Of a stretch of 41,453 nucleotides of DNA, positions 4,845 through 41,302 are shown in pieces. The position numbers and the translations under genes were made by a program. The first letter of the stretch is position 1. Each line of letters opens with the position of its first letter. The notes beneath the pieces were generated by a model. That model did not search any database. It saw only the letters and a list, made by a program, of their open reading frames with translations, and was not told the origin of the DNA. This stretch comes from a virus. The stretch spans positions 1-41,453 of IMG/VR virus record IMGVR_UViG_3300021083_000107; one strand, written 5' to 3'.

Positions 4845-7800
4845 TTATTTGTTATGAAGTTGTTCTTTAACCTCCGCCGCCCTATCCCTAATATCTGGAT
4901 ATTTTGATGTTATATACGCAACACCAGCATCTCGTGTAGCTGTAATAGCACTATCAATTACTTTTGCCTGATCGTAATGAGATAGTTTCTCAAATCCGGG
5001 GATTTGCAAGATTCCATTATTCTTGTCATTCCACAAAGCATCCCTGAGAGCAAGCCCAGATACTACGGCATATTCATGGTATTGATCTGGCGTCAACTTT
5101 ATACCCATAATTTCTTTTGGAATGGTTGAAATTCCAATATCCAATTTTTGTAATTTCTGAACTATGGGGTCATTATTATCCCACCCCATTCCCATACCAG
5201 TTCCACTAGGCAACTTACCGCCCAACACATTAACCTTTGGATCAAGCATATAAGAAACGAATGGCAACCTATTGGCTATCTTGGGGCCGAAACCCCATAG
5301 ATTACTTACGCCATTGCTTGTTACCGACCTAGCCGTGGGGTCAACCTGTTGTCTTGTCATGTTCAATGCGGCTGAATATGGAATAAAACCCGTAGCTAGG
5401 TTCTGTATATATTTCCATGCTGAATCTTGGTTTCTAAACATATCAACAAGCTGTGACATGCCATTTAGCCATGTGTCGCTGGTAATATTTTCTCCAAAAC
5501 TGGCAGCAATCCCCGTGGCTATGTGGACGTCAGCCCCACTTTCGAGGGAGTGAATACCATCAGCAAAATCAGCACATGCGCCGACAATAGGTGCCATTTC
5601 TCCAAGCCATTTTTTGTACGGGATATAAAGGTTCCCCACCTTAATGCTGTACGGTTTCCATCCTCCAGCTATAAGCACATTGCGTTGCTTATAATCAGTT
5701 GGCCCGCCCCCGGTTATAAAACCAGCCATTCCCATGCCGAAAGCTACCGTTCCAGCTGTTGCACCTAGCATCATCTTGGCTCCGGCGTTAGCCCTCGCAA
5801 TGTCACCGTTTTTGCCTAACAAATCGTCGCGCACAGACTGCTTAATAAGCCCAAGCGGTGTGCTTTCAATTAAACCTTGATCCAGCATGTTAACGCCAAT
5901 TTTGGCAAATGGCATTGCTAATCCAGTGACAAGCCTAAACCCTGGAATATTGTTATTCGATACCGTAGAAAGGACTCTATTCATTTCTGCGCTTGAAGTC
6001 TTCATATACATAGCTTCAAGAGATTTTTCGTGAGCGTCTTTCATCGCTTCGATTGGAGGGTTCTGTGTGTACTTCACAAGATGATTGCTCATTGCATCGC
6101 CAGTAAAGCCTTTCGACACGCCATCTTGGAAAGCTTTCTCTGCTATCCGCATTTCATAATTGACGGAATATGAAAGAGTATGGATACCAGCGATTGATCG
6201 CTCTGGAACGGTCAGAAAATGCCCAATACCACCCGGCAATGATTGTTTGTATCCCTTGTTCGATTTTTCAATTTCATTCTGTAAGTAAGTATGAATTGCA
6301 GGATAGGATTCCGCTTGTTTTGCTGCGGCATCTTTATTAGCACTTCGAAGTGCAAGGGTTGCATCAATGTCAGATATATTGACTTTATTAGCCCTAGCTT
6401 CAACTCTTGCCGCTTTTAACAGGTCGTTCTTTCCTGAGAATCTTTGTTGAAATACTTTATCGAGCGCAGTACGAGCAACACCTTCTTCCGAGCCGCGCAT
6501 AAATGGGATGCCGGATTTAACTGCCCCCCACGCCACTGGGAATGAGTTCATTGCGGCATTATTGAGGACAGTGAGCATGTATGGTATTTGTTCCAGAGTT
6601 ACTCTATCTGCATCTCCCCTTATCGCTCCAATCAACGCTGCGTAAGGCGTGTTTATTAAAGCGCGTCCATACGCTTTTACAAATGTATTGGACAAATACG
6701 CAAGATGCGTTAATGGGTTTGAAAGAACATTATTTCTAAAGAAAGCTAACGTTGCATCTTCAAAAGCCTTGTACCTACCTGTGCGCATATCAACGGCAAA
6801 CTCTGCCTTTGCTTCTGGCTTATCAATAGATTGCATGAGTTTTGCTTCTTCTTCTAATTGAAGAAGAGACTTCCCTGTGACGGATTTTATATATGAGGCA
6901 AGATCCGGGATATTTTCTGAACTGGATACCCTTCTAAGAGCGTGTCCAGCGTGCGCCCAGTCAGCTTGTAGTTCAGCCCTGATTTCTGCTGCTATTTGCA
7001 GTTGCTGAGTAATGCGGAGATACGCCAACATATCTTGTGGAGATTTCTTTGCATCAACCTTTAATGTTGCGGACTTTTCAGCTAGTTGTTCGATAAGTTC
7101 AAAATTAGCGTCAATAAGTTTTTGTTGCCTATATGCAGCATCCCCATAACGAGCGTCCATAATATCTGAATTATTGGCAACCAGTTCGTTTAGAGCCGCC
7201 ATCGCATCGGCACTTCCATTTATTTTATCAAGACGAAAACGTTTGCTGCTCTCGTCTAAATAATAGGGTTTGCCCCCTGCTGGATGTGTGGTTCCTGCGG
7301 CGGCTCTTTCTCCTGCTGCTGTTCCGGCATCGCCTGCGGCATTCCCGCTTCCTTCGCTTGCTGCTTTTCTATCGGCTGCGCCGAGTTCTCCGGTTGGCTC
7401 GGTTGATTCTGCTCCGGATTCTGCTGTTGGTCGTAACTCAGAGCCTTCTGGCGAAGTTGCACTTCCGCTTGTGCCGATCTTTGGAGGTTCTGACGCAGTG
7501 GCGTCTGTGGCAACTGACTCAGTCCCTGCACTATCTGTTGCGCCTCCGCTAATTTTTTCTGCGCTTGCGATAACATTTTCAGCCTCCTTGTCGCCATGCT
7601 GTTTGGCGGTTAAATTTATCTCATTACGAACATTATCGGCAACATCTGTTGCCTTATCCGGGGGTGTTTCTTTCGCATCCTGCTCATGTAAATCTGCAAA
7701 TTCTTTTCCAGACATATTTTCTGGGGTTATTACAGTCTCATAGCCACCTTCTCCGCCCCCAAGCATACGATCAAACATCTTACGAATATCATCATTTATC

Positions 7801-10121
7801 TGTACTTTTTGATCTGGTATATTCTCAACAGAACGATAAATATCGGTTAATAATTTCTTTAATTTAGCAAATATATCAGACATTGCCTCATTGGGCGCAT
7901 GACCTTCCATAAAATACCGCTCGGTAGCACGCGCAAATGATTCGTGCTGTGATCTAGTAAAGCCGCTCCAATTGCCTTTTGCGTTGCCGAGCCATTTTCT
8001 TATATTTGCAACATCATCGACTAGTTGCTTTGGCGCACCATCCTCAGCCGCATATTTTGCCATAATATCAAGAAAGTGATGTGCGCTTTCATGAATAAAC
8101 GTGGAGGCATCGGCACGCTTCATCAACCGTATTATAGCCCTACCAGTGTTGGATACATACGTAGGTATATACGAACCTTTGGCTTTTTGCTCCAAAGTTC
8201 CCTTTTGTGCAAGTTGGGTTACGCTTTGGTTCTGTTTTACGACATCGGCACCCTCGCGCTTATACCAATCTGCGATTGTTCCTCGCGCACCCCCATACAA
8301 ATCAGACATACTTTGGAAGAATGTTGCCACAACTTGTGCTGTTGAATGAGCTTCTTCTGCGCTCCTTCCTGCTGCGACTTGCTTGGCTATAACATCATTT
8401 ACCACGGAATTACGCATTTGCTCTTTCGATGCGGTATTTTCTTGTGGCTCTTCTTGTGGTTCTTTTTCTCCAATTATATCGCCAAGATGTGCCTCAACAT
8501 TATATTTTGCAACATTCAATTTTGGTTCTGGGACTGTTTGAGTTTCCGGCATTTTCTCGGAAGCATCTCGATAAGCTTTGTTTACCTCATCGGCCAAACC
8601 TTCGCGCTCTTTTGATAGATCGCTTATCTTACTTCTAACGACGGCCATGTCTGGCGTATCTTCTGTCTTCTTGCCTTCAACAAGTTCATTAAACGCATCC
8701 GTTGCATCAGATATTTGAGAGCGCAAATCAGCAAGCATAGAAGCTTGTTTATTTGTCAATCTATCCTCAACACCATTAACCTTATCAAGTATATCACTGA
8801 TTTTCTGATTATTTGTATCAGTCAAATTATCGACTTTGCCTTTCGCTTCAACAATATCAGGATCAATCATGATGTTATCATCACGCTTTTGCACCAGATC
8901 TTTCACCCATGTATGCAACCTTTGGAGTTGAGCCGTAATAGGGTCCCATTTAGAAAACACTTCAGGGTTTATTTGACGAGCAACATCGTGAATAGTTTGG
9001 GGTTCTACAGTCTTGACATTAATTGAAGGTGCTTCTTGATTTTCCGCTATCTCAGGCTTGATGGATGAATGAACTTCTGGTTCGCTAAATTTCAGAGGTT
9101 CTTTAAAGTAGTCGGCCTCCGTACCCATTGCGCTGGCGTTATTCAAACGCACAATTCTATCTGGCGGCTTTACCCACGAAGCACCTTCACCGCCCATAAC
9201 AATCTGGGAAACCTGCTGCCCCATATCAATGGCATCTTCTTTACTCATTCCAGATCGTTCGGCCTCTTCCTGCATAGCGGCACTAGCGCCTGACAATGTA
9301 GCTTCCATGCTAGGAAGAATCATTGCGGCCTTCATCATGACGGTTACTGGGTCTTCTGTGCTTACACCGCGTTCATCAACCTGTGGCGAAAACTGCTCAA
9401 TCGTAGAGCGCAATTGATCCATATATGCGCTTTGCATAAATGCAGTTGCGTATGGCTTAATAATATCACCCGCAAGATTGGCCATGCTTGCGGCATTTTC
9501 CTGAAAACCATTGGAGTTCTTAAAGCTCTTTAGATCAGAACTGATTTCGTCATCATGGGCTATACTGGCTTGATCTGGAACTTTTGCTCTGAATAAATTA
9601 ACCACATCATTGTTTATCGAATTTCCAATATTGCTCATGCCAAAGAATGCGGCCTTTGCCGCACCGCCCAATGCGCTTACCGTCTTATCAACATTCATCA
9701 TTGTTCTGGCATTATTAGGAGCAAGTTTTTGAAGTGCTTCGAATGCTGACTTATCCGTATCGTTCAATGTCGCCTTGTAATCGTCTATTTCCTTTTGTTC
9801 TTGAATCGGCTTTTGCTCAATAGCCAATTTCTCCTGCGCTTCAGGAGTGTTCATATGCGCAGATATATCCTCCGAAAAAGACGCCAAGTCGCTATTTGTT
9901 TGTTCCGCATGTTTTTGTGCTTCAGCGGCAAATGCGTTTAGATCGGATTGCTGCTGTGTCGCCTGTTCTGGCGTTATCGGTGCTGGCGCGACCTGTGGTG
10001 TGAGTTGTTGCTGTGCAGGTTGTTCAACAGTCTGTGATGTCGCAACTTGCTGTGGTGCGATTACAGGAGGCTGGTCAGGCTGTGCTGTAAGCACTTCTGT
10101 TTGGTTAACAGGATCGGCCAT
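4845..10121 (-). CDS. Giant internal virion / DNA-ejection protein with HExxH metallopeptidase motif
   Basis: 1758 residues, from an ATG in a TAATG overlap preceded by GGAGG. It sits last in the gp14/gp15/gp16-like series, where T7 gp16 (about 1,300 residues) builds the ejection channel. The N-terminal 100 residues are Gln/Pro/Ala-rich. Coiled-coil segments follow around 390-560. H677-E678-S-A-H681 forms an HExxH zinc-binding motif, followed about 55 residues later by a 'HESFARATERYFMEG' segment that could supply the third ligand. This resembles the metallopeptidase domains described in phage polyvalent proteins. Residues about 840-955 are a Gly/Ala/Ser/Thr/Glu low-complexity linker. The C-terminal 700 residues are helical, with a hydrophobic Gly-rich stretch near 1450 that may insert in membrane. 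It probably combines channel formation with a processing or envelope-related enzyme. Confidence 0.75.
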   Translation of the reverse strand: MADPVNQTEVLTAQPDQPPVIAPQQVATSQTVEQPAQQQLTPQVAPAPITPEQATQQQSDLNAFAAEAQKHAEQTNSDLASFSEDISAHMNTPEAQEKLAIEQKPIQEQKEIDDYKATLNDTDKSAFEALQKLAPNNARTMMNVDKTVSALGGAAKAAFFGMSNIGNSINNDVVNLFRAKVPDQASIAHDDEISSDLKSFKNSNGFQENAASMANLAGDIIKPYATAFMQSAYMDQLRSTIEQFSPQVDERGVSTEDPVTVMMKAAMILPSMEATLSGASAAMQEEAERSGMSKEDAIDMGQQVSQIVMGGEGASWVKPPDRIVRLNNASAMGTEADYFKEPLKFSEPEVHSSIKPEIAENQEAPSINVKTVEPQTIHDVARQINPEVFSKWDPITAQLQRLHTWVKDLVQKRDDNIMIDPDIVEAKGKVDNLTDTNNQKISDILDKVNGVEDRLTNKQASMLADLRSQISDATDAFNELVEGKKTEDTPDMAVVRSKISDLSKEREGLADEVNKAYRDASEKMPETQTVPEPKLNVAKYNVEAHLGDIIGEKEPQEEPQENTASKEQMRNSVVNDVIAKQVAAGRSAEEAHSTAQVVATFFQSMSDLYGGARGTIADWYKREGADVVKQNQSVTQLAQKGTLEQKAKGSYIPTYVSNTGRAIIRLMKRADASTFIHESAHHFLDIMAKYAAEDGAPKQLVDDVANIRKWLGNAKGNWSGFTRSQHESFARATERYFMEGHAPNEAMSDIFAKLKKLLTDIYRSVENIPDQKVQINDDIRKMFDRMLGGGEGGYETVITPENMSGKEFADLHEQDAKETPPDKATDVADNVRNEINLTAKQHGDKEAENVIASAEKISGGATDSAGTESVATDATASEPPKIGTSGSATSPEGSELRPTAESGAESTEPTGELGAADRKAASEGSGNAAGDAGTAAGERAAAGTTHPAGGKPYYLDESSKRFRLDKINGSADAMAALNELVANNSDIMDARYGDAAYRQQKLIDANFELIEQLAEKSATLKVDAKKSPQDMLAYLRITQQLQIAAEIRAELQADWAHAGHALRRVSSSENIPDLASYIKSVTGKSLLQLEEEAKLMQSIDKPEAKAEFAVDMRTGRYKAFEDATLAFFRNNVLSNPLTHLAYLSNTFVKAYGRALINTPYAALIGAIRGDADRVTLEQIPYMLTVLNNAAMNSFPVAWGAVKSGIPFMRGSEEGVARTALDKVFQQRFSGKNDLLKAARVEARANKVNISDIDATLALRSANKDAAAKQAESYPAIHTYLQNEIEKSNKGYKQSLPGGIGHFLTVPERSIAGIHTLSYSVNYEMRIAEKAFQDGVSKGFTGDAMSNHLVKYTQNPPIEAMKDAHEKSLEAMYMKTSSAEMNRVLSTVSNNNIPGFRLVTGLAMPFAKIGVNMLDQGLIESTPLGLIKQSVRDDLLGKNGDIARANAGAKMMLGATAGTVAFGMGMAGFITGGGPTDYKQRNVLIAGGWKPYSIKVGNLYIPYKKWLGEMAPIVGACADFADGIHSLESGADVHIATGIAASFGENITSDTWLNGMSQLVDMFRNQDSAWKYIQNLATGFIPYSAALNMTRQQVDPTARSVTSNGVSNLWGFGPKIANRLPFVSYMLDPKVNVLGGKLPSGTGMGMGWDNNDPIVQKLQKLDIGISTIPKEIMGIKLTPDQYHEYAVVSGLALRDALWNDKNNGILQIPGFEKLSHYDQAKVIDSAITATRDAGVAYITSKYPDIRDRAAEVKEQLHNK

Positions 10122-33601: not shown

Positions 33602-34061
33602 TCCTTAACATTTTGAACTTATTAATAATTGCCTATTTTCTAATCAAAAGTCAACCACAAATAAAACTGCCTATATTTTAGGTAAATAAGACCGTCTGAG
33701 ACTGCCACTACACTGCCACCTACACGGCAACCCCAGTATTTATTGGTACTTAAGACAGTATAAGACAGTTATTTATATATATAATAGAAAACGTACAGAG
33801 CAGTATATATAAGAGGAGGGAATAGGCTCGTTTACAGGACGGGGTTAGGAAAAAGTGTTAACGGCCACCCAAATGACACTTAAACACTGGTATCATTGAA
33901 CTAAATAGCTGAGGCAGTCGTTTTCATAGACTGCCACCAAACTAAAAATAGCAATAATATTTCGCGTGTAATGACATTATTTTATAGACTTGCCCTATAT
34001 TCTTTGGTAAGGTCTGAATATCAAATAGCTTGATGAAGCTAGCCAACAACTGGAGGATAAC
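33602..34061. promoter_or_regulatory. Divergent control region with repeated motifs
   Basis: No convincing gene lies in these 460 bases. ACTGCC occurs at 33666-33671, 33701-33706, 33712-33717 and 33930-33935; three of these extend to ACTGCCAC. GGCAGTC (33913-33919) and GACTGCC (33929-33935) form a 7-bp inverted repeat with a 9-base loop. TAAGACAGT is repeated in tandem at 33751-33759 and 33761-33769, followed by a perfect TATAAT at 33780-33785 on the plus strand. A second plus-strand possibility is ATGACA ... TATATT near 33971-34000. The region divides early (right) and structural (left) genes and is the obvious place for phage operators. Confidence 0.6.
33625..33654 (-). promoter_or_regulatory. 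Candidate promoter for the leftward structural block
   Basis: On the minus strand TTGACT (33654-33649) and AATTAT (33630-33625) are 18 bases apart, about 33 bases ahead of the small-terminase ATG. The -35 is a near-perfect sigma-70 box, the -10 is moderate. Confidence 0.4.
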
Positions 34062-34453: not shown

Positions 34454-34681
34454 ATGAACACGCAACACACCTTCGGTTATGCTTCCTCATTCTACAAGGG
34501 CAAAAAATGCTATGTGCCAATGATTGACGGGCGTATGCCTTCCAGCCCTTCACATTACAAAACGCCCGAAGGGGCAGTTAAATTCGCCCGTGGCGTTGTA
34601 TGGGGGATTGTAGAGGCTATAAAAAACAACGGCCATGAAGCAACCGCTGTTTTCATCACTCACGACCAGAAGGGGGTATAA
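34454..34681 (+). CDS. Small hypothetical early protein
   Basis: 75 residues. 'YASSFYKGKKCYVPMIDGRM' and 'HYKTPEGAVKFARGVVWGIV' suggest a small alpha/beta unit. No family recognised. It begins 2 bases after the preceding stop. Confidence 0.55.
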   Translation: MNTQHTFGYASSFYKGKKCYVPMIDGRMPSSPSHYKTPEGAVKFARGVVWGIVEAIKNNGHEATAVFITHDQKGV

Positions 34682-34683
34682 TC

Positions 34684-34836
34684 ATGAAACGCTTTATAAT
34701 CGAAATGCGCCAAGGCTGGGAAGATGACACGCCGCTATTTTTCCCTTGTGATGCCGATGACGCCGACCACGCCGAGGAGCAAGCCCTAAACGCTTATCCA
34801 GAATGGCGAGTCGTAACGGTTTTTCAGGAGGTTTAA
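34684..34836 (+). CDS. Small acidic early protein
   Basis: 50 residues from the ATG at 34684: 'MKRFIIEMRQGWEDDTPLFF', a DADDADHAEEQA acidic helix, then 'YPEWRVVTVFQ'. The strand-helix-strand order resembles other short phage early proteins, including the interrupted one at 36252. Unknown function. It begins 2 bases after the previous stop and is followed by the next ATG after 2 bases. Confidence 0.55.
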   Translation: MKRFIIEMRQGWEDDTPLFFPCDADDADHAEEQALNAYPEWRVVTVFQEV

Positions 34837-34838
34837 TC

Positions 34839-35015
34839 ATGATTAAAATCAAAGAAACCGACTTCAACAAAATATCACCAGACTATAAAGGAACGCATGA
34901 GGGCAAGCGGACTGTATTCGCCGGTTGCATCATGCCTAACATGGGAACGAATATTGCAGTTGAAGGAACAGACTTTGAGATTGTTCCGACACCAAAAAAG
35001 AAGGCAAGATCATGA
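34839..35015 (+). CDS. Small early protein
   Basis: 58 residues from the ATG at 34839, preceded by CAGGAGGTTTAATC. 'ISPDYKGTHEGKRTVFAGC' and 'GTNIAVEGTDFEIV' form a small beta-type unit. Unknown role; overlaps the next start (ATGA). Confidence 0.55.
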   Translation: MIKIKETDFNKISPDYKGTHEGKRTVFAGCIMPNMGTNIAVEGTDFEIVPTPKKKARS

Positions 35016-35185
35016 CCTGGCTCACAAACAACCCCGAAGCCGCCTCAAAACTAAACGCCGCTGACCGCGCCTACAATAAAGCACGCGAGGCCGCAAAATC
35101 TCTTGGCTTGGCTGATAAGATTGTCGCTTTGCGTGAGGCTAAGGTTAAGCGCGTGGCGGCTTATGCAAAGGCGGTGAAATCATGA
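35012..35185 (+). CDS. Small Ala/Lys-rich helical early protein
   Basis: 57 residues, nearly all helix: 'NNPEAASKLNAADRAYNKAR', 'GLADKIVALREAKVKRVA'. ATGA overlaps on both ends. No family recognised. Confidence 0.5.
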   Translation: MTWLTNNPEAASKLNAADRAYNKAREAAKSLGLADKIVALREAKVKRVAAYAKAVKS

Positions 35186-35400
35186 CCCACGACCTCGAAT
35201 ACATCAATACGGGCATGTTCACCCGCTTTGTGCCGAATACGCCAGCCGGTGAGGATGCATGGCGGGTTATGGATGGTTGCGTGCTGTCTATTCACCTCGA
35301 CAACGTGCTGCGTCAGCTTCGTAAGGCTGGTTTGAGCGTAGGAAAGGCTAGACCGGCTCAGGTTAACGATGATGAACTGTTAAAGGAGTTAATGGCATGA
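35182..35400 (+). CDS. Small hypothetical early protein
   Basis: 72 residues. 'GMFTRFVPNTPAGEDAWRVM' and 'LDNVLRQLRKAGLSVGKARP' give an alpha/beta appearance. It overlaps neighbours by 4 bases each side. Confidence 0.55.
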   Translation: MTHDLEYINTGMFTRFVPNTPAGEDAWRVMDGCVLSIHLDNVLRQLRKAGLSVGKARPAQVNDDELLKELMA

Positions 35401-35555
35401 CCATGCTTACATGCAAGGAATGCGGCATATGGCTCGATCATGAACTAGCTCACGCAACATCGGTTAATCGTGACTACCCTTATTGCGACGAGTGCATAGG
35501 ATTGGCGCAGGAGCAGGAAGAAATGGATAATGGGCAGTTTGGGGTGGGGGCATGA
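35397..35555 (+). CDS. Zinc-ribbon-like microprotein
   Basis: 52 residues from the ATG at 35397. CKEC (residues 6-9) and CDEC (about 31-34) are two CxxC pairs separated by 21 residues, a likely zinc ribbon, followed by an acidic Gln-rich tail. Could bind nucleic acid or a host protein. ATGA overlaps on both sides. Confidence 0.55.
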   Translation: MTMLTCKECGIWLDHELAHATSVNRDYPYCDECIGLAQEQEEMDNGQFGVGA

Positions 35556-35791
35556 GAAACGCAGATTTAAATGATGTTGCCGACCAAAACTATAAAGAGG
35601 CGGTTGAGTATGAAAGAAAAGAACTGGAGCAACTTCTCGCAAAGCGTGATGCAATCCGAGCTAAACAAATGAAGCGTTACGATGATCGCTCAGCGACTCG
35701 CGCAAGAACAACCACGTCAAACGCCGAAGCTAGTCGCCTTAATGATCGTATTGAGTGGCTACGGTCTGAAATAAAGAAAATGCAATTATAA
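35552..35791 (+). CDS. Coiled-coil early protein
   Basis: 79 residues with heptad-like helices: 'EYERKELEQLLAKRDAIRAK' and 'LNDRIEWLRSEIKKM' separated by an Arg/Ser/Thr linker. Unknown role. Confidence 0.55.
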   Translation: MRNADLNDVADQNYKEAVEYERKELEQLLAKRDAIRAKQMKRYDDRSATRARTTTSNAEASRLNDRIEWLRSEIKKMQL

Positions 35792-35809
35792 TCATCAAAG
35801 GAAATAATC

Positions 35810-36058
35810 ATGCCTATCAGTATTGAGGAAAAACATGCAGCACAGGCTTGCAGTAAGCAAGAGTCACGCGACAAAAGAACTCCAGAACCATTAAACGAGG
35901 AGCTTGTTGAGGATTGTTTCTTTGAAGCAATCACCAGCACAGAGCAAATTTTTGATGATCTTGCAAAGCATAGGCTTTTTGACTTGGCAGATGTTTATCT
36001 TGAGCGGCTCGAAACGCTGCTTGAAAATGTCCAACTTGTAATTGACGATGCGAGGTAA
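35810..36058 (+). CDS. Hypothetical acidic helical protein
   Basis: 82 residues. The C-terminal half 'FDDLAKHRLFDLADVYLERL' is a helical hairpin. AAAGGA upstream of the ATG at 35810. No family recognised. Confidence 0.55.
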   Translation: MPISIEEKHAAQACSKQESRDKRTPEPLNEELVEDCFFEAITSTEQIFDDLAKHRLFDLADVYLERLETLLENVQLVIDDAR

Positions 36059-36062
36059 AACC

Positions 36063-36248
36063 GTGACTTTTGATCCTATGAAAACTGGCGAGAAGTGGTG
36101 CAAAGAAATTGACGCTTCAATTTTGCTTTGCATATCCATAGACGCCAACGGAAACATTGTTAGCTTCTCGCATGGCCGCACCAAGCAGTTATGCAAAGAG
36201 GCCGGAAAGATGCTTGATGAAATTCACGACAACATTGTCAAGGGATAA
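36063..36248 (+). CDS. Small hypothetical protein, GTG start
   Basis: 61 residues from a GTG at 36063 with GAGG 7 bases upstream; the upstream ATG at 36042 lies inside the previous gene. 'KTGEKWCKEIDASILLCISI' and a repeated SFSHGRTKQL segment. Unknown function. Confidence 0.5.
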   Translation: MTFDPMKTGEKWCKEIDASILLCISIDANGNIVSFSHGRTKQLCKEAGKMLDEIHDNIVKG

Positions 36249-36547: not shown

Positions 36548-36645
36548 TCTCATGGTTCCGCAAACATCTTGTCACCCTATGCGAAGGATTTATGTTTGGA
36601 TTGGGAATTGGGATTGGCTCTAAGGTATTGGATATTTTTAAATGA
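36544..36645 (+). CDS. Micro membrane-like protein
   Basis: 33 residues with a single hydrophobic Gly-rich stretch 'GFMFGLGIGIGSKVL' after a basic N-terminus. Could be a one-segment membrane peptide; holin function is not supported by anything else. ATGA overlaps on both ends. Confidence 0.45.
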   Translation: MISWFRKHLVTLCEGFMFGLGIGIGSKVLDIFK

Positions 36646-37037
36646 TCGACCGCCGCAAAGTTAAAGGCACCATCTTACAACGCAAGGATTACGATTACGC
36701 GCGTCATAATGAATTGCGTGTGACGCCGTATGAGTATGCGCCAACATTGCCAATACTAGAAACGCCCCGCGATATTCAAATTATTGAAACAGGAAATAAA
36801 CCTGAATGGCGCGAAGTTAATAAATTAACGAATGTTGATAATGATTGGAACGGGCAACGCATTCGTTCCCTTCGCAAACGACTGAACCTCTCAGCGCGTA
36901 AATTCGGGCATCTGCTAGGCTTCCCCGGCAAGAACTGCCATATCACCATCTATCGCCATGAATCCGATAAGATCAAACCGTCAATACAAACGGTGATGAT
37001 TTTGGAGCAGTTGGAAAAATCTGTTCCGCAAGCGTAA
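36642..37037 (+). CDS. Cro/CI-type HTH regulator
   Basis: 131 residues. The N-terminal 60 residues are unrecognised. The C-terminal part is an XRE-type HTH: 'GQRIRSLRKRLNLSARKFGH', 'LLGFPG', 'ITIYRHESDKIKPSIQTVM'. It lies directly before the leader of the replication operon and could control that promoter or the 33.6-34.06 kb region. Family clear; targets inferred. Confidence 0.75.
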   Translation: MIDRRKVKGTILQRKDYDYARHNELRVTPYEYAPTLPILETPRDIQIIETGNKPEWREVNKLTNVDNDWNGQRIRSLRKRLNLSARKFGHLLGFPGKNCHITIYRHESDKIKPSIQTVMILEQLEKSVPQA

Positions 37038-37083
37038 CATAAATTTTCAATTCGAACCATCTTCCCAAAATATAAAAAATGTG

Positions 37084-37089
37084 TATAAT
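37084..37089 (+). promoter_or_regulatory. Candidate promoter -10 for the replication operon
   Basis: Perfect TATAAT after an A-rich tract. At 17 bases upstream the hexamer is CTTCCC, a poor -35, so activation by a protein may be needed. Transcription would start near 37096. Confidence 0.4.
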
Positions 37090-37095
37090 GATGGC

Positions 37096-37181
37096 GCTGT
37101 CTAAATGTCGGTTCAGCCGATTGACACGTCCTCAAGCGTGACAGCATCCAATTCTTGGGGAATTTCTTGAGGATTCCCCAA
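37096..37181 (+). promoter_or_regulatory. Structured 5' leader with Shine-Dalgarno in a hairpin loop
   Basis: GCTGTC (37096-37101) pairs with GACAGC (37140-37145). Inside, TCGG (37108-37111) pairs with CCGA (37117-37120), and CACG (37125-37128) can pair with CGTG (37137-37140). Downstream TTGGGGAAT (37155-37163) and ATTCCCCAA (37173-37181) make a perfect 9-bp stem. Its 9-base loop TTCTTGAGG carries the GAGG ribosome site, and the stem's last base is the A of the ATG at 37181. The design suggests translational control. Confidence 0.6.
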
Positions 37182-37405
37182 TGGCATCAAAGAAATGTCA
37201 GTTACCTGTTGAATTTGGCGTTTTCACGCGCTTTCCCCCACATCATATTGAAGCCATACAAAAAGTTTCACATGCGCTCGTAAAAGCATACGAATCGCAA
37301 GATAAATCTGCGTGGCTGGCTATTATAAATACAGCGAACAAGGATTTGACAAAGTTTGAGAGAGGCTTGTTCTCAGCATTCGCCATAATGATGGTGAAAA
37401 AATGA
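37181..37405 (+). CDS. Small protein leading the replication operon
   Basis: 74 residues. 'FPPHHIEAIQKVSHALVKAY' and 'IINTANKDLTKFERGLFSAF' are two helices. No family recognised. ATG sits against the leader hairpin; the stop overlaps the primase start (ATGA). Confidence 0.55.
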   Translation: MASKKCQLPVEFGVFTRFPPHHIEAIQKVSHALVKAYESQDKSAWLAIINTANKDLTKFERGLFSAFAIMMVKK

Positions 37406-39522
37406 TTGAGCAGCAATTTCTTGAACTAATGCTTAGCCACGGGTTCCAGCCCGGTCAAATAATTGCTGATGGTGAATACCACCGTTTTCCAATCAAGAAA
37501 TCTGATCGTGATGGATACTACGCATTAGATGCGAACGGATTTGGCGTTTTTGGTAATTGGAAAACTGGCGACCAATACAAGTTTCGCGCTGGTAAATCTG
37601 AACAGATGACCGAGCAAGAACGACAGGAATCTGCTGCAAAATACAAAGCTGAATTGAAAAAGAAAAAAGCCGAAAAAGAAAATGCCGAATCACGCGCAGC
37701 TATTGAAGCGAATAAAATATGGAATGAAGCAAGAGAAGCGCCCGCAGATCATTGGTATTTAGTAAAAAAACAAATCAAAGCACATGAAGCAAGAATAGAC
37801 GTTTCTAACAATTTATTGGTGCCCATTTATAGCAATCAAAAAATTGTCAATCTTCAGCGCATATTAAAAGACGGTAAAAGGTTTTTACCTGATGCGAAAA
37901 AGAAAGGTTGCTATGGCAAAATAGACGGACAGCGTGATGTTATTTTTATTGCTGAAGGTTTTGCTACAGCAGCAAGCATAAACGAAGCAACGGGCAAATT
38001 TTGCGTGATTGCGCTTGATGCGGGAAACCTATTACCAGTTGCCAAGTTTGTTCGTGAAAAGTTTGGCGTATCTCAAAGAATTGTTATTGCTGGTGATAAC
38101 GATCAATGGACGGAAGTTAAGGGAGAAAAACACAACACGGGGTTAATTGAAGGTGAGCGCTCCGCAAATGAGATATACGCTGAGTTAAAGTATCCCCATT
38201 TTCCGAGTGACGGTGAAAAATTTACCGATTGGAATGACTGGGCTTGTGAGTTCGGCCTTGAAGCAGTGCGCGACGAATTATTGCCACACAAGGAAATTGA
38301 GATATTAGAGCCTGAAGTTTCTACGGATGTCGCGCCATATGCGAAACCCGATTATGATCTTGATGATAATGGCCGGCCAAAATGCACTATTGAAAATTTG
38401 AGAAAGGTTGCCGATCAGAGAGGAATCATTCTACGCTACAACGTTATTAAGAAACAGGAAGAAATACTTATACCCAATGAAAGTTATAGCCTTGATAACG
38501 GCCTAAATGCTGCCTACGCACGCATAGTTTCTTTCTGCAAGCAAGAGGATATGCCAACATCACAGATTGGCGATTATCTGACTTACCTTTGCGATCAGAC
38601 GCAATACAACCCCGTTACAACATGGATAAAATCAAAGCCTTGGGATGGACACAGCAGATTACAGGAATTTTACGATACGATAGAGTCGCCAGATAGAGCG
38701 GTTAAAGAACTAATTTTAAAACGCTGGATGACATCTGCGGTTGCATCGGCGTTTTCACCCGATGGCCTTGCTACGCGCGGCGTACTTGTGTTTCAGGGCG
38801 AACAGTATTTAGGTAAAACGTCATGGTTTAAGAAACTTGCCCCGCATCATTTGGATGTTCGGAAAGACGGTTATATTTTGAGGCTTGATGATAAAGATAA
38901 TATCTTTCAATGCTTATCGCATTGGCTCATTGAATTAGGAGAACTTGAGGCTACCTTTAAAAAGTCGGATATAGCTCAGCTAAAGGCATTTATTCCTATG
39001 GACAAGGATATAATGCGCCGTCCATATGCGCGGAAAGATAGCCAGTATGGGCGCAGAACCGTGTTTTTTGCATCGGTCAATCAAAAAGAATTTTTATTTG
39101 ACGAGACAGGAAATACTCGTTTTTGGTCAATTGAAACAACTTTTATAAATTACAACCACAATATAGATATGCAGCAAGTTTGGGCAGAATTTTACATTTT
39201 ATACCAGAACGGCGAAAGTTACATTATGAGTCCCGAAGAAATGAAACGCATTAATACCAATAATGAAGCATTCATGGGGCCAGATTATCATAATGAATTA
39301 GCTGCCCGAAAGTTTGATTGGGAAGATTTGGAATCCAATGAAGGATCATGGAAAACAGCGACAGAAATATGCCATATGGTCGGCATTTTAAACCCCAAAC
39401 AAAGTGATTTAAATAAAATTGCAAAATCTATACGTCAGCACAACGGAGATAGAAACAAAAAGGGAGCCAAGGGCGTTAGGTTATTGCTGGTTCCGAGAGA
39501 AAGAAGCATGGTGCAAGAATGA
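37402..39522 (+). CDS. Toprim primase fused to VirE-type helicase
   Basis: 706 residues. The N-terminal 60 residues are a small domain. A Lys/Glu-rich helix lies at about 70-120. Toprim follows: E185 in 'VIFIAEGFATAASINEA' and 'IVIAGDND' (D232, D234). The C-terminal half is a VirE/VapE-type P-loop ATPase with Walker A G466-E-Q-Y-L-G-K472-T473, 'WLIELGELEATFKKSDIAQL' and 'QYGRRTVFFASVNQKEFL'. These are phage and mobile-element primase-helicases. It should prime and unwind DNA for a polymerase not found here. Confidence 0.85.
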   Translation: MIEQQFLELMLSHGFQPGQIIADGEYHRFPIKKSDRDGYYALDANGFGVFGNWKTGDQYKFRAGKSEQMTEQERQESAAKYKAELKKKKAEKENAESRAAIEANKIWNEAREAPADHWYLVKKQIKAHEARIDVSNNLLVPIYSNQKIVNLQRILKDGKRFLPDAKKKGCYGKIDGQRDVIFIAEGFATAASINEATGKFCVIALDAGNLLPVAKFVREKFGVSQRIVIAGDNDQWTEVKGEKHNTGLIEGERSANEIYAELKYPHFPSDGEKFTDWNDWACEFGLEAVRDELLPHKEIEILEPEVSTDVAPYAKPDYDLDDNGRPKCTIENLRKVADQRGIILRYNVIKKQEEILIPNESYSLDNGLNAAYARIVSFCKQEDMPTSQIGDYLTYLCDQTQYNPVTTWIKSKPWDGHSRLQEFYDTIESPDRAVKELILKRWMTSAVASAFSPDGLATRGVLVFQGEQYLGKTSWFKKLAPHHLDVRKDGYILRLDDKDNIFQCLSHWLIELGELEATFKKSDIAQLKAFIPMDKDIMRRPYARKDSQYGRRTVFFASVNQKEFLFDETGNTRFWSIETTFINYNHNIDMQQVWAEFYILYQNGESYIMSPEEMKRINTNNEAFMGPDYHNELAARKFDWEDLESNEGSWKTATEICHMVGILNPKQSDLNKIAKSIRQHNGDRNKKGAKGVRLLLVPRERSMVQE

Positions 39523-40964
39523 CTATTAGAATTAGGGATTATCAAAATGAATTAATTATTAAAACTAGACTTGCTCTTAAAGATAGCAATAGCGTGGTGA
39601 TGCAAAGCCCAACAGGATCGGGAAAAACTTTAACAACTGCATGGATTGTTAAATCAGTTTTAGAAAGAAAAAAGCGTTGTATTTTTTGCGTTCATAGGCA
39701 GGAGCTTGTCACTCAGACAAGCGCAGCGTTTGATAAAATGGGAATTGAACATGGATTTATTACATCTGATAAAGATTACGATGCAGAGAAATTTGTTCAC
39801 ATAGCTGGAATTGATACGTTGCGCCGACGTTTAGATGAAACTGTGCCACCTGATTTATTGATATGCGACGAAGGTCATAGATATATGGCCGATTCTTACA
39901 AGAAAGTCGTTGATTATTGGCCGAGCGCAAAAAAACTTATAATAACTGCGACACCAGAAAGAACCGATGGCAGGGGATTAAAACATATTGCTCAAAAGCT
40001 TGTCGTTGGAAAATCACCTCAATGGCTTATTGATGAAGGATTTTTGTCGCCTTATCGAGTTTTTGCTCCCAGTGATCCTGACCTAAGCGGCATAAAAACA
40101 ACAGCCGGTGATTACCAAGTAGATCAGCTTGCCGCAGCAATGAACACATCAGCAATTACTGGAAATGCTTTAGAACATTATAAAAAACATTGTGAAAACA
40201 TGCAGGCAGTTGTGTTTGCCGTAAATATTGAACATTCGAAAGCTATTGTAGCTCAATTTAATGAAGCCGGAATACCTTCTGCCCATCTTGACGGAAAATT
40301 GGGGAAAATTGAACGTGAAGATATTGTGGAGCGTTTTAAATACGGTGAAACAAGAGTATTAAGTTCAGTAAATATTTTGATTGAAGGGTTAGACGTTCCG
40401 AATATTCAAGCATGTATTATGTTAAGACCGACAAAATCATTGATTGTGTTTCTTCAAAGCGTTGGACGTGCTTTGCGCCCTGTTTATGCAGAAGGATATG
40501 ATTTGGAAACGGTAGAAGGCAGATTAAACGCTATTCAAAATGGGCCTAAGAAATACGCTATATTGCTTGACCATGCAGGAAATACAAAACGATTTGGCCT
40601 TCCTGCAACTGAGCGTCACTGGTCATTAGAAGGCAAAAAAGGTCGTCCCAAATCAAAGATAATTAACTCTACATGCGAAGAATGTTTCCATGTTTGGGAG
40701 CGTAAACCAAACGAACCAATTGAATGCCCTATTTGCGGTTGGAAACCAGAACCAAAAGAGAAAAAGGAAACAACGGCAATTGCAGGGGAACTAGAAGAGG
40801 TTATCGAAACAAAAAATCCTTGGGCATGGTCTAAAAATAAATCTCTAAGTGTAATTAAGCCGCATGTTAAAACGCACGCTGACCTTATTAAAATAGCTGA
40901 AGCCCGTAATTATAGAAAGGGCTGGGCATTTTATAAAGCTAAGGAATGGGGCATTAAGCGATGA
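39519..40964 (+). CDS. SF2 DNA/RNA helicase with zinc ribbon
   Basis: 481 residues. Q-motif 'RDYQ'; Walker A 'SPTGSGKT' (S30-T37); DEGH (D117-H120); motif III 'TATPERTDG'; motif VI 'QSVGRALRP'. After the helicase core a zinc ribbon, 'CEECFHVW' then 'CPICGW', is attached. Such helicases occur in phage replication modules and resemble UvsW/RecQ-like unwinding enzymes in outline only. It overlaps the primase by 4 bases. Confidence 0.85.
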   Translation: MTIRIRDYQNELIIKTRLALKDSNSVVMQSPTGSGKTLTTAWIVKSVLERKKRCIFCVHRQELVTQTSAAFDKMGIEHGFITSDKDYDAEKFVHIAGIDTLRRRLDETVPPDLLICDEGHRYMADSYKKVVDYWPSAKKLIITATPERTDGRGLKHIAQKLVVGKSPQWLIDEGFLSPYRVFAPSDPDLSGIKTTAGDYQVDQLAAAMNTSAITGNALEHYKKHCENMQAVVFAVNIEHSKAIVAQFNEAGIPSAHLDGKLGKIEREDIVERFKYGETRVLSSVNILIEGLDVPNIQACIMLRPTKSLIVFLQSVGRALRPVYAEGYDLETVEGRLNAIQNGPKKYAILLDHAGNTKRFGLPATERHWSLEGKKGRPKSKIINSTCEECFHVWERKPNEPIECPICGWKPEPKEKKETTAIAGELEEVIETKNPWAWSKNKSLSVIKPHVKTHADLIKIAEARNYRKGWAFYKAKEWGIKR

Positions 40965-41302
40965 GCGAGACTGACATACTTAAAGGGTGTTTGTCGGCAT
41001 TGTGCAAGCAATATGCAGGGTGTGGCTTATTTTACCGTAGGAATACAGGCGCTTTAGAAACACAATCAGGGTTTGTTCGCTTTGGCTTGCCTGGCATGGC
41101 GGATATTGGTGGTATTCTTGATTCAATCGCATACGAGATCGAAATCAAAACCCTCAAGGGCATACAATCTGAAGCACAAAAAAACTGGCAACGCGCAGTC
41201 GAAAAAGCAAGTGGAGTTTATATACTTGCTCGATCAGTCGATGATTGCCTAAAACAAGTCGCTCTCTGTCGGGAGAGATTTGCAACCACTCATTCCACAT
41301 GA
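40961..41302 (+). CDS. VRR-NUC-domain nuclease
   Basis: 113 residues. 'RFGLPGMADIGGILDSIAYE' followed by 'IEIKTLKGIQSEAQKNWQ' contains the E-x-K catalytic core and the conserved D of PD-(D/E)XK enzymes of the VRR-NUC type. 'GVYILARSVDDCL' closes the fold. Stand-alone phage versions usually cut branched or flap DNA and often follow SF2 helicases, as here. ATGA overlap with the helicase. Confidence 0.8.
   Translation: MSETDILKGCLSALCKQYAGCGLFYRRNTGALETQSGFVRFGLPGMADIGGILDSIAYEIEIKTLKGIQSEAQKNWQRAVEKASGVYILARSVDDCLKQVALCRERFATTHST

Follow-up and report, generated by a model that had tools for sequence, protein, structure and literature searches.

The leader of the replication operon in this virus record raises the question of whether RNA structure at the first start codon restrains translation of the gene that begins there and of the genes behind it. 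The window, meaning the whole stretch of DNA that we analysed (41,453 bases, ~43% GC), carries structural genes on its minus strand and an early/replication block on its plus strand. The described phages with related terminases are Rhizobium phages (57%), so an alphaproteobacterial host is likely. Within the plus-strand block, an HTH-like gene is followed by a 143-nt gap and then by a 74-aa ORF, and every junction from this ORF through the small endonuclease-like gene is a four-base overlap by ORF coordinates, the 74-aa stop and the primase start sharing ATGA (Table 1). Elsewhere in the window, a minus-strand ORF of 1,758 aa without a Pfam match (4845-10121) probably encodes a large virion protein. 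The gap between divergent operons holds a perfect 9-bp AT-only inverted repeat, TTATATATA/TATATATAA (33773-33812), in what is possibly an early promoter or origin region. A series of small plus-strand ORFs of 50-82 aa lies at 34454-36248, with a PHROG match in 0 of the 9 tested.

Table 1 Features of the leader and of the replication operon, in window coordinates
Feature	Position	Strand	Description
HTH-like gene	36642-37037		Resembles phage transcriptional regulators, PHROG 14076
−35 element TTCCCA	37062-37067	+	Weak; 16-bp spacer to −10
−10 box TATAAT	37084-37089	+	Consensus scan, 10/12 matches including −35
Outer helix P1, 5′ arm GCTGTC	37096-37101	+
Possible 21-codon leader ORF (MSVQPIDTSSSVTASNSWGIS)	37105-37170	+	TGA inside SD loop; no SD of its own
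Hairpin P2, GTCGGT-TCA-GCCGAT	37107-37121	+	Core probability 0.48-0.92 by context
Hairpin P3, ACGT-CCTCAA-GCGT	37126-37139	+	Core probability 0.30-0.86
Widened P3 loop, TCCTCAAG	37129-37136	+	Complementary to SD loop
Outer helix P1, 3′ arm GACAGC	37140-37145	+
Initiation-site hairpin	37155-37181	+	27 nt, 9-bp stem and 9-nt loop; sequence read directly
Hairpin 5′ arm, TTGGGGAAT	37155-37163	+
Hairpin loop, TTCTTGAGG	37164-37172	+
SD GAGG	37169-37172	+	In 9-nt loop at loop/stem border
Hairpin 3′ arm, ATTCCCCAA	37173-37181	+	Last A is the A of ATG 37181-37183
74-aa orphan ORF	37181-37405	+	First gene of operon; predicted helical
Primase/helicase (Toprim + VapE-like)	37402-39522	+	Pfam and PHROGs
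DEAD/ResIII-type DNA helicase	39519-40964	+	Same operon; Pfam and PHROGs
Small endonuclease-like gene	40961-41302	+	Plus-strand block

The hairpin at the first start codon

The original prediction described a perfect 9-bp stem that places GAGG in its loop and includes the A of the start codon, and the directly read sequence agrees with it exactly. The accompanying description of the SD as displayed in the loop holds for the bare 9-bp form only, since two further U-G pairs form over the GG of the SD in the minimum-energy fold, and an exactly complementary upstream loop can cover it. Start codon and SD share one stable hairpin, the arrangement of the MS2 coat-type sequestering hairpin. The pair probability of the SD stem was 0.95-0.96 in all six transcript contexts, whereas the outer helix P1, at 0.74 in the 88-nt leader, reached only 0.07-0.33 when the RNA was longer; the modelled folds thus present the SD hairpin as the solid part of the leader and the upstream three-way junction as conditional.

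A 9-bp stem could arise by chance or belong to the DNA rather than the RNA, and we assessed how unusual this one is. Between 33000 and 41453, no other start codon carries a perfect 9-bp inverted repeat with a short spacer. We counted perfect stems that place the SD at the loop across ~5,600 SD-start sites in fetched phage and host loci: 24 were of 7 bp, 8 of 8 bp and 3 of 9 bp. These base rates are rough, because the site lists are mechanical ORF starts and not curated genes. One of the three 9-bp stems duplicates the window, leaving two distinct sites. By local folding energy (−30 to +6), the site ranked second of 1,132 with GC of at most 50%, and 41st of 2,250 overall. The hairpin is real and unusual in form. 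The energy needed to open −12 to +3 was not extreme (rank 384 of 1,692, or 90 of 748 at GC of at most 50%) and placed the start site at about the 77th percentile, in the upper quarter of all sites. The total is unexceptional because other pairings can substitute.

These measurements bear directly on the possibility that the structure is a chance or neutral one with no regulatory role, the gene being translated from transiently open RNA or by other means. Such a reading draws on the ordinary opening energy, on the expectation that one among thousands of start sites will bear such a stem, and on the fact that no conservation is demonstrable, neither the leader nor the 74-aa gene having a found relative. 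It must be set against the local stability at comparable GC, the loop match described below and the start of P1 exactly at the predicted +1, and we consider it unlikely, although not negligibly so. At the DNA level, the 27-bp dyad might instead be a site for the adjacent HTH-like regulator, an idea encouraged by the kinship of that gene to phage transcriptional regulators. However, the half-site of the 3′ arm is found nowhere else in the window, the dyad lies at about +60 to +86 relative to the promoter, and it matches the SD and ATG exactly. We give this proposal very little credence.

We give similarly little to a known host regulator or thermometer, whether a CsrA site, a fourU/ROSE thermometer or a known riboswitch. 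A GGA at the loop edge and three U's opposite that GGA in the extended stem would suit such an element, but no Rfam covariance model matched at gathering score in the whole window, and warming from 20 to 42 °C lowers the opening energy by little, from 11.8 to 9.7 kcal/mol. CsrA itself was detected in only 28 of 142 alphaproteobacterial genomes. The protein prefers stems of at most 4 bp and 6-nt loops with ACARGGAUG (PMC7652899); a CsrA/RsmA site (RUACARGGAUGU, GGA in a hexaloop) was rejected, the stem here being 9 bp, the loop 9 nt and the A of GGA paired. A leader/gene-start duplication was also discarded as not significant (P 0.22).

The upstream leader and a complementary loop

The predicted −10 box suggests that the transcript likely starts at ~37096, a position that coincides with the first base of the GCTGTC arm of P1. 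The pairing of GCTGTC with GACAGC around two further hairpins (GUCGGU/GCCGAU and ACGU/GCGU), part of the original prediction, is present in the minimum-energy fold. Indeed, P1, both enclosed hairpins and the SD hairpin occur in the minimum-energy and the centroid structures of 37096-37183, a segment that folds at −30.7 kcal/mol (z −3.40), a value equalled by 1 of 200 shuffles. The segment 37060-37220, which begins upstream of the promoter, has an unremarkable fold (z −1.22). A nested alternative helix is 9 kcal/mol worse at −21.5 kcal/mol, and a bistable leader of the lambda cIII type was rejected on account of these dissimilar energies.

Overlooked in the original prediction was an 8-nt match between UCCUCAAG (37129-37136), in the widened P3 loop, and its exact complement CUUGAGGA (37166-37173), which sits in and beside the SD loop. 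Such a match arose in 0.7% of dinucleotide-shuffled upstream leaders, and in 0.05% inside a predicted hairpin loop, P values that were calculated after the fact and are hence optimistic. Were the two loops to kiss, the SD left in the loop of the 9-bp hairpin would be masked. An unbroken stack formed by P1/P3, the kissing helix and the SD stem would be expected to strain the 9-nt linker, so P1 or P3 may have to open partly for the contact to form. In its fullest version, the upstream loop would act as a built-in anti-SD that kisses the start-codon hairpin, creating a two-lock off state that a phage or host signal opens; we put this forward with considerable reserve.

The possible leader ORF crosses the same region. 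In the plasmid R1 tap-repA and ColIb-P9 repY-repZ systems, translation of a leader ORF is followed by re-initiation at the rep gene. By analogy, ribosomes on 37105-37170 might open P1-P3 and the 5′ arm of the hairpin and then halt at the SD, and re-initiation at 37181 might follow. The placement of the TGA within the SD loop and the extent of the ORF, which covers most of the structure, are consistent with this switch, and the complementary loops are reminiscent of the repZ pseudoknot system (PMC8383071). However, an ORF ending at this point occurred in 26% of shuffles and is not beyond chance; it lacks an SD, and 9 nt separate its ATG from the predicted 5′ end. The pairing, moreover, covers the SD instead of lying upstream of it, and the promoter scan returned no antisense promoter of note, its opposite-strand promoter-like match inside the 74-aa gene (37242-37271) being weak. 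We regard this leader-peptide switch as improbable.

Probable dampening of translation in the replication operon

The reading that we favour, at somewhat better than even chances, is that a cis-acting hairpin dampens translation at the head of the phage replication operon. Transcription would begin near 37096, and the SD and the start codon of the 74-aa gene, held in the 27-nt hairpin, would be available to the 30S subunit only in competition with folding, giving low initiation. The robustness and rarity of the stem, the fold of the leader from the predicted start and a computed cost of ~15 kcal/mol for opening the 30S footprint speak for this reading. Translation of the primase is presumed to be coupled through the ATGA overlap, so that one hairpin would set the output of both genes. 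Pairing of the P3 loop with the SD loop would produce a stronger off state. The computed ΔG of the hairpin is −11.8 at 42 °C, which by the published MS2 fit should permit ~0.7% of full expression at this temperature and less when cooler, an estimate that is carried over to a different host and leaves coupling, standby binding and co-transcriptional folding out of account.

Translational repression of the replication operon had been proposed at the outset, and part of that proposal stands: in an operon whose primase is identified by Pfam and PHROGs, the first gene has its initiation site inside the hairpin, and the predicted stability of this hairpin is enough to depress initiation. Any repressor or ligand is a candidate only. 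The hairpin might be bound by a protein of the phage, for instance the primase or the 74-aa product, that represses its own operon. The position of the hairpin on the initiation site of the operon's first gene would suit such an operator, as would the small orphan helical product encoded immediately downstream, and T4 replication genes are known for autogenous control (PMC3014915). The AlphaFold model of the 74-aa product (pLDDT 71) had no PDB match with E ≤ 0.001, however, and the protein matched no RNA-binding family in Pfam or PHROGs and no RNA-binding fold; a hairpin that is already stable could repress without any protein, and the features of RegA and gp43 operators are absent. Control by a protein seems to us improbable.

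Searches for relatives placed the leader in a single genome. The 74-aa protein had no relative in viral contigs, in phage/plasmid records, in 45 phage records or in 385 alphaproteobacterial genomes. Viral contigs were queried with the 74-aa protein, the HTH protein, the primase (as a single sequence and as an alignment), the helicase and the terminase, and genome contigs also with the primase alignment; none of the relatives recovered carried the leader or the 74-aa gene. Primase relatives were 31-51% identical, at most 51% over part of the protein; in the ones inspected, the sequence immediately before the gene held no leader like this one. Neither viral nor genome contigs contained the hairpin pattern. 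A search with the kissing pattern returned 117 stretches, with a comparable stem in none of those fetched, and a covariance model built on the leader gave no hit at E < 0.1 outside the window in 45 phage records and 99 loci.

By structural genes, the nearest relative (L014; terminase 98%) carries at the corresponding position a replication module unrelated to that of the window (L014/L013 compared with the window). This comparison suggests that the replication module has probably been exchanged as a block.

Should dampening by the hairpin prove correct, an environmental phage, probably one that infects an alphaproteobacterium, would limit its primase supply at translation by means of a single RNA hairpin, perhaps with an intramolecular kissing lock. 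It would offer a compact and testable scheme, beyond T4, for how translation can time phage DNA replication. At present, the leader is a plausible single-genome case.

Comparison with known leaders and operators

The proposed kinship with T4 regA/gp43-type controls does not stand up in detail in either of its parts. T4 RegA sites are A+U-rich and without clear structure (PMC3014915); like them, the hairpin overlaps the start codon of replication genes, but it does so with a stable G+C-containing 9-bp stem. The T4/RB69 gene 43 operator is a hairpin ~40 nt upstream with a UAAC-type loop that binds DNA polymerase (PMC3014915). It too is a leader hairpin of a phage replication gene, whereas the hairpin described here spans the AUG, and the genes that it precedes are an orphan and a Toprim/VapE primase, not a polymerase.

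Other leaders share particular elements. The lambda cIII leader, which adopts two balanced conformations (PMC4166951), is likewise a phage 5′ UTR whose structure governs access to the RBS. In the ColIb-P9 repZ leader, a pseudoknot forms upstream of the RBS and activates translation, and an antisense RNA blocks the pseudoknot (PMC8383071). As in repZ and related plasmid leaders, an upstream loop is complementary to sequence near the SD of a replication gene, and a leader ORF is possible. In contrast to repZ, the 8-nt match here covers the SD and would act with opposite sign, the pairing is a predicted one, and no antisense RNA is evident.

The MS2 coat initiator is a 27-nt hairpin that contains the start codon and a partial SD (ΔG ~−7.9), and its stability sets coat synthesis (PMC9894550). 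The hairpin at 37155-37181 matches this initiator, studied by de Smit and van Duin, in its length of 27 nt and in holding a start codon and SD. Unlike the MS2 element, it lies in a DNA-phage leader, is ~4 kcal/mol more stable at 42 °C, carries its SD mostly in the loop and has a complementary loop upstream in addition. Control by the hairpin itself would be of a well-known general kind, and the kissing-loop lock is the interesting, unproven part.
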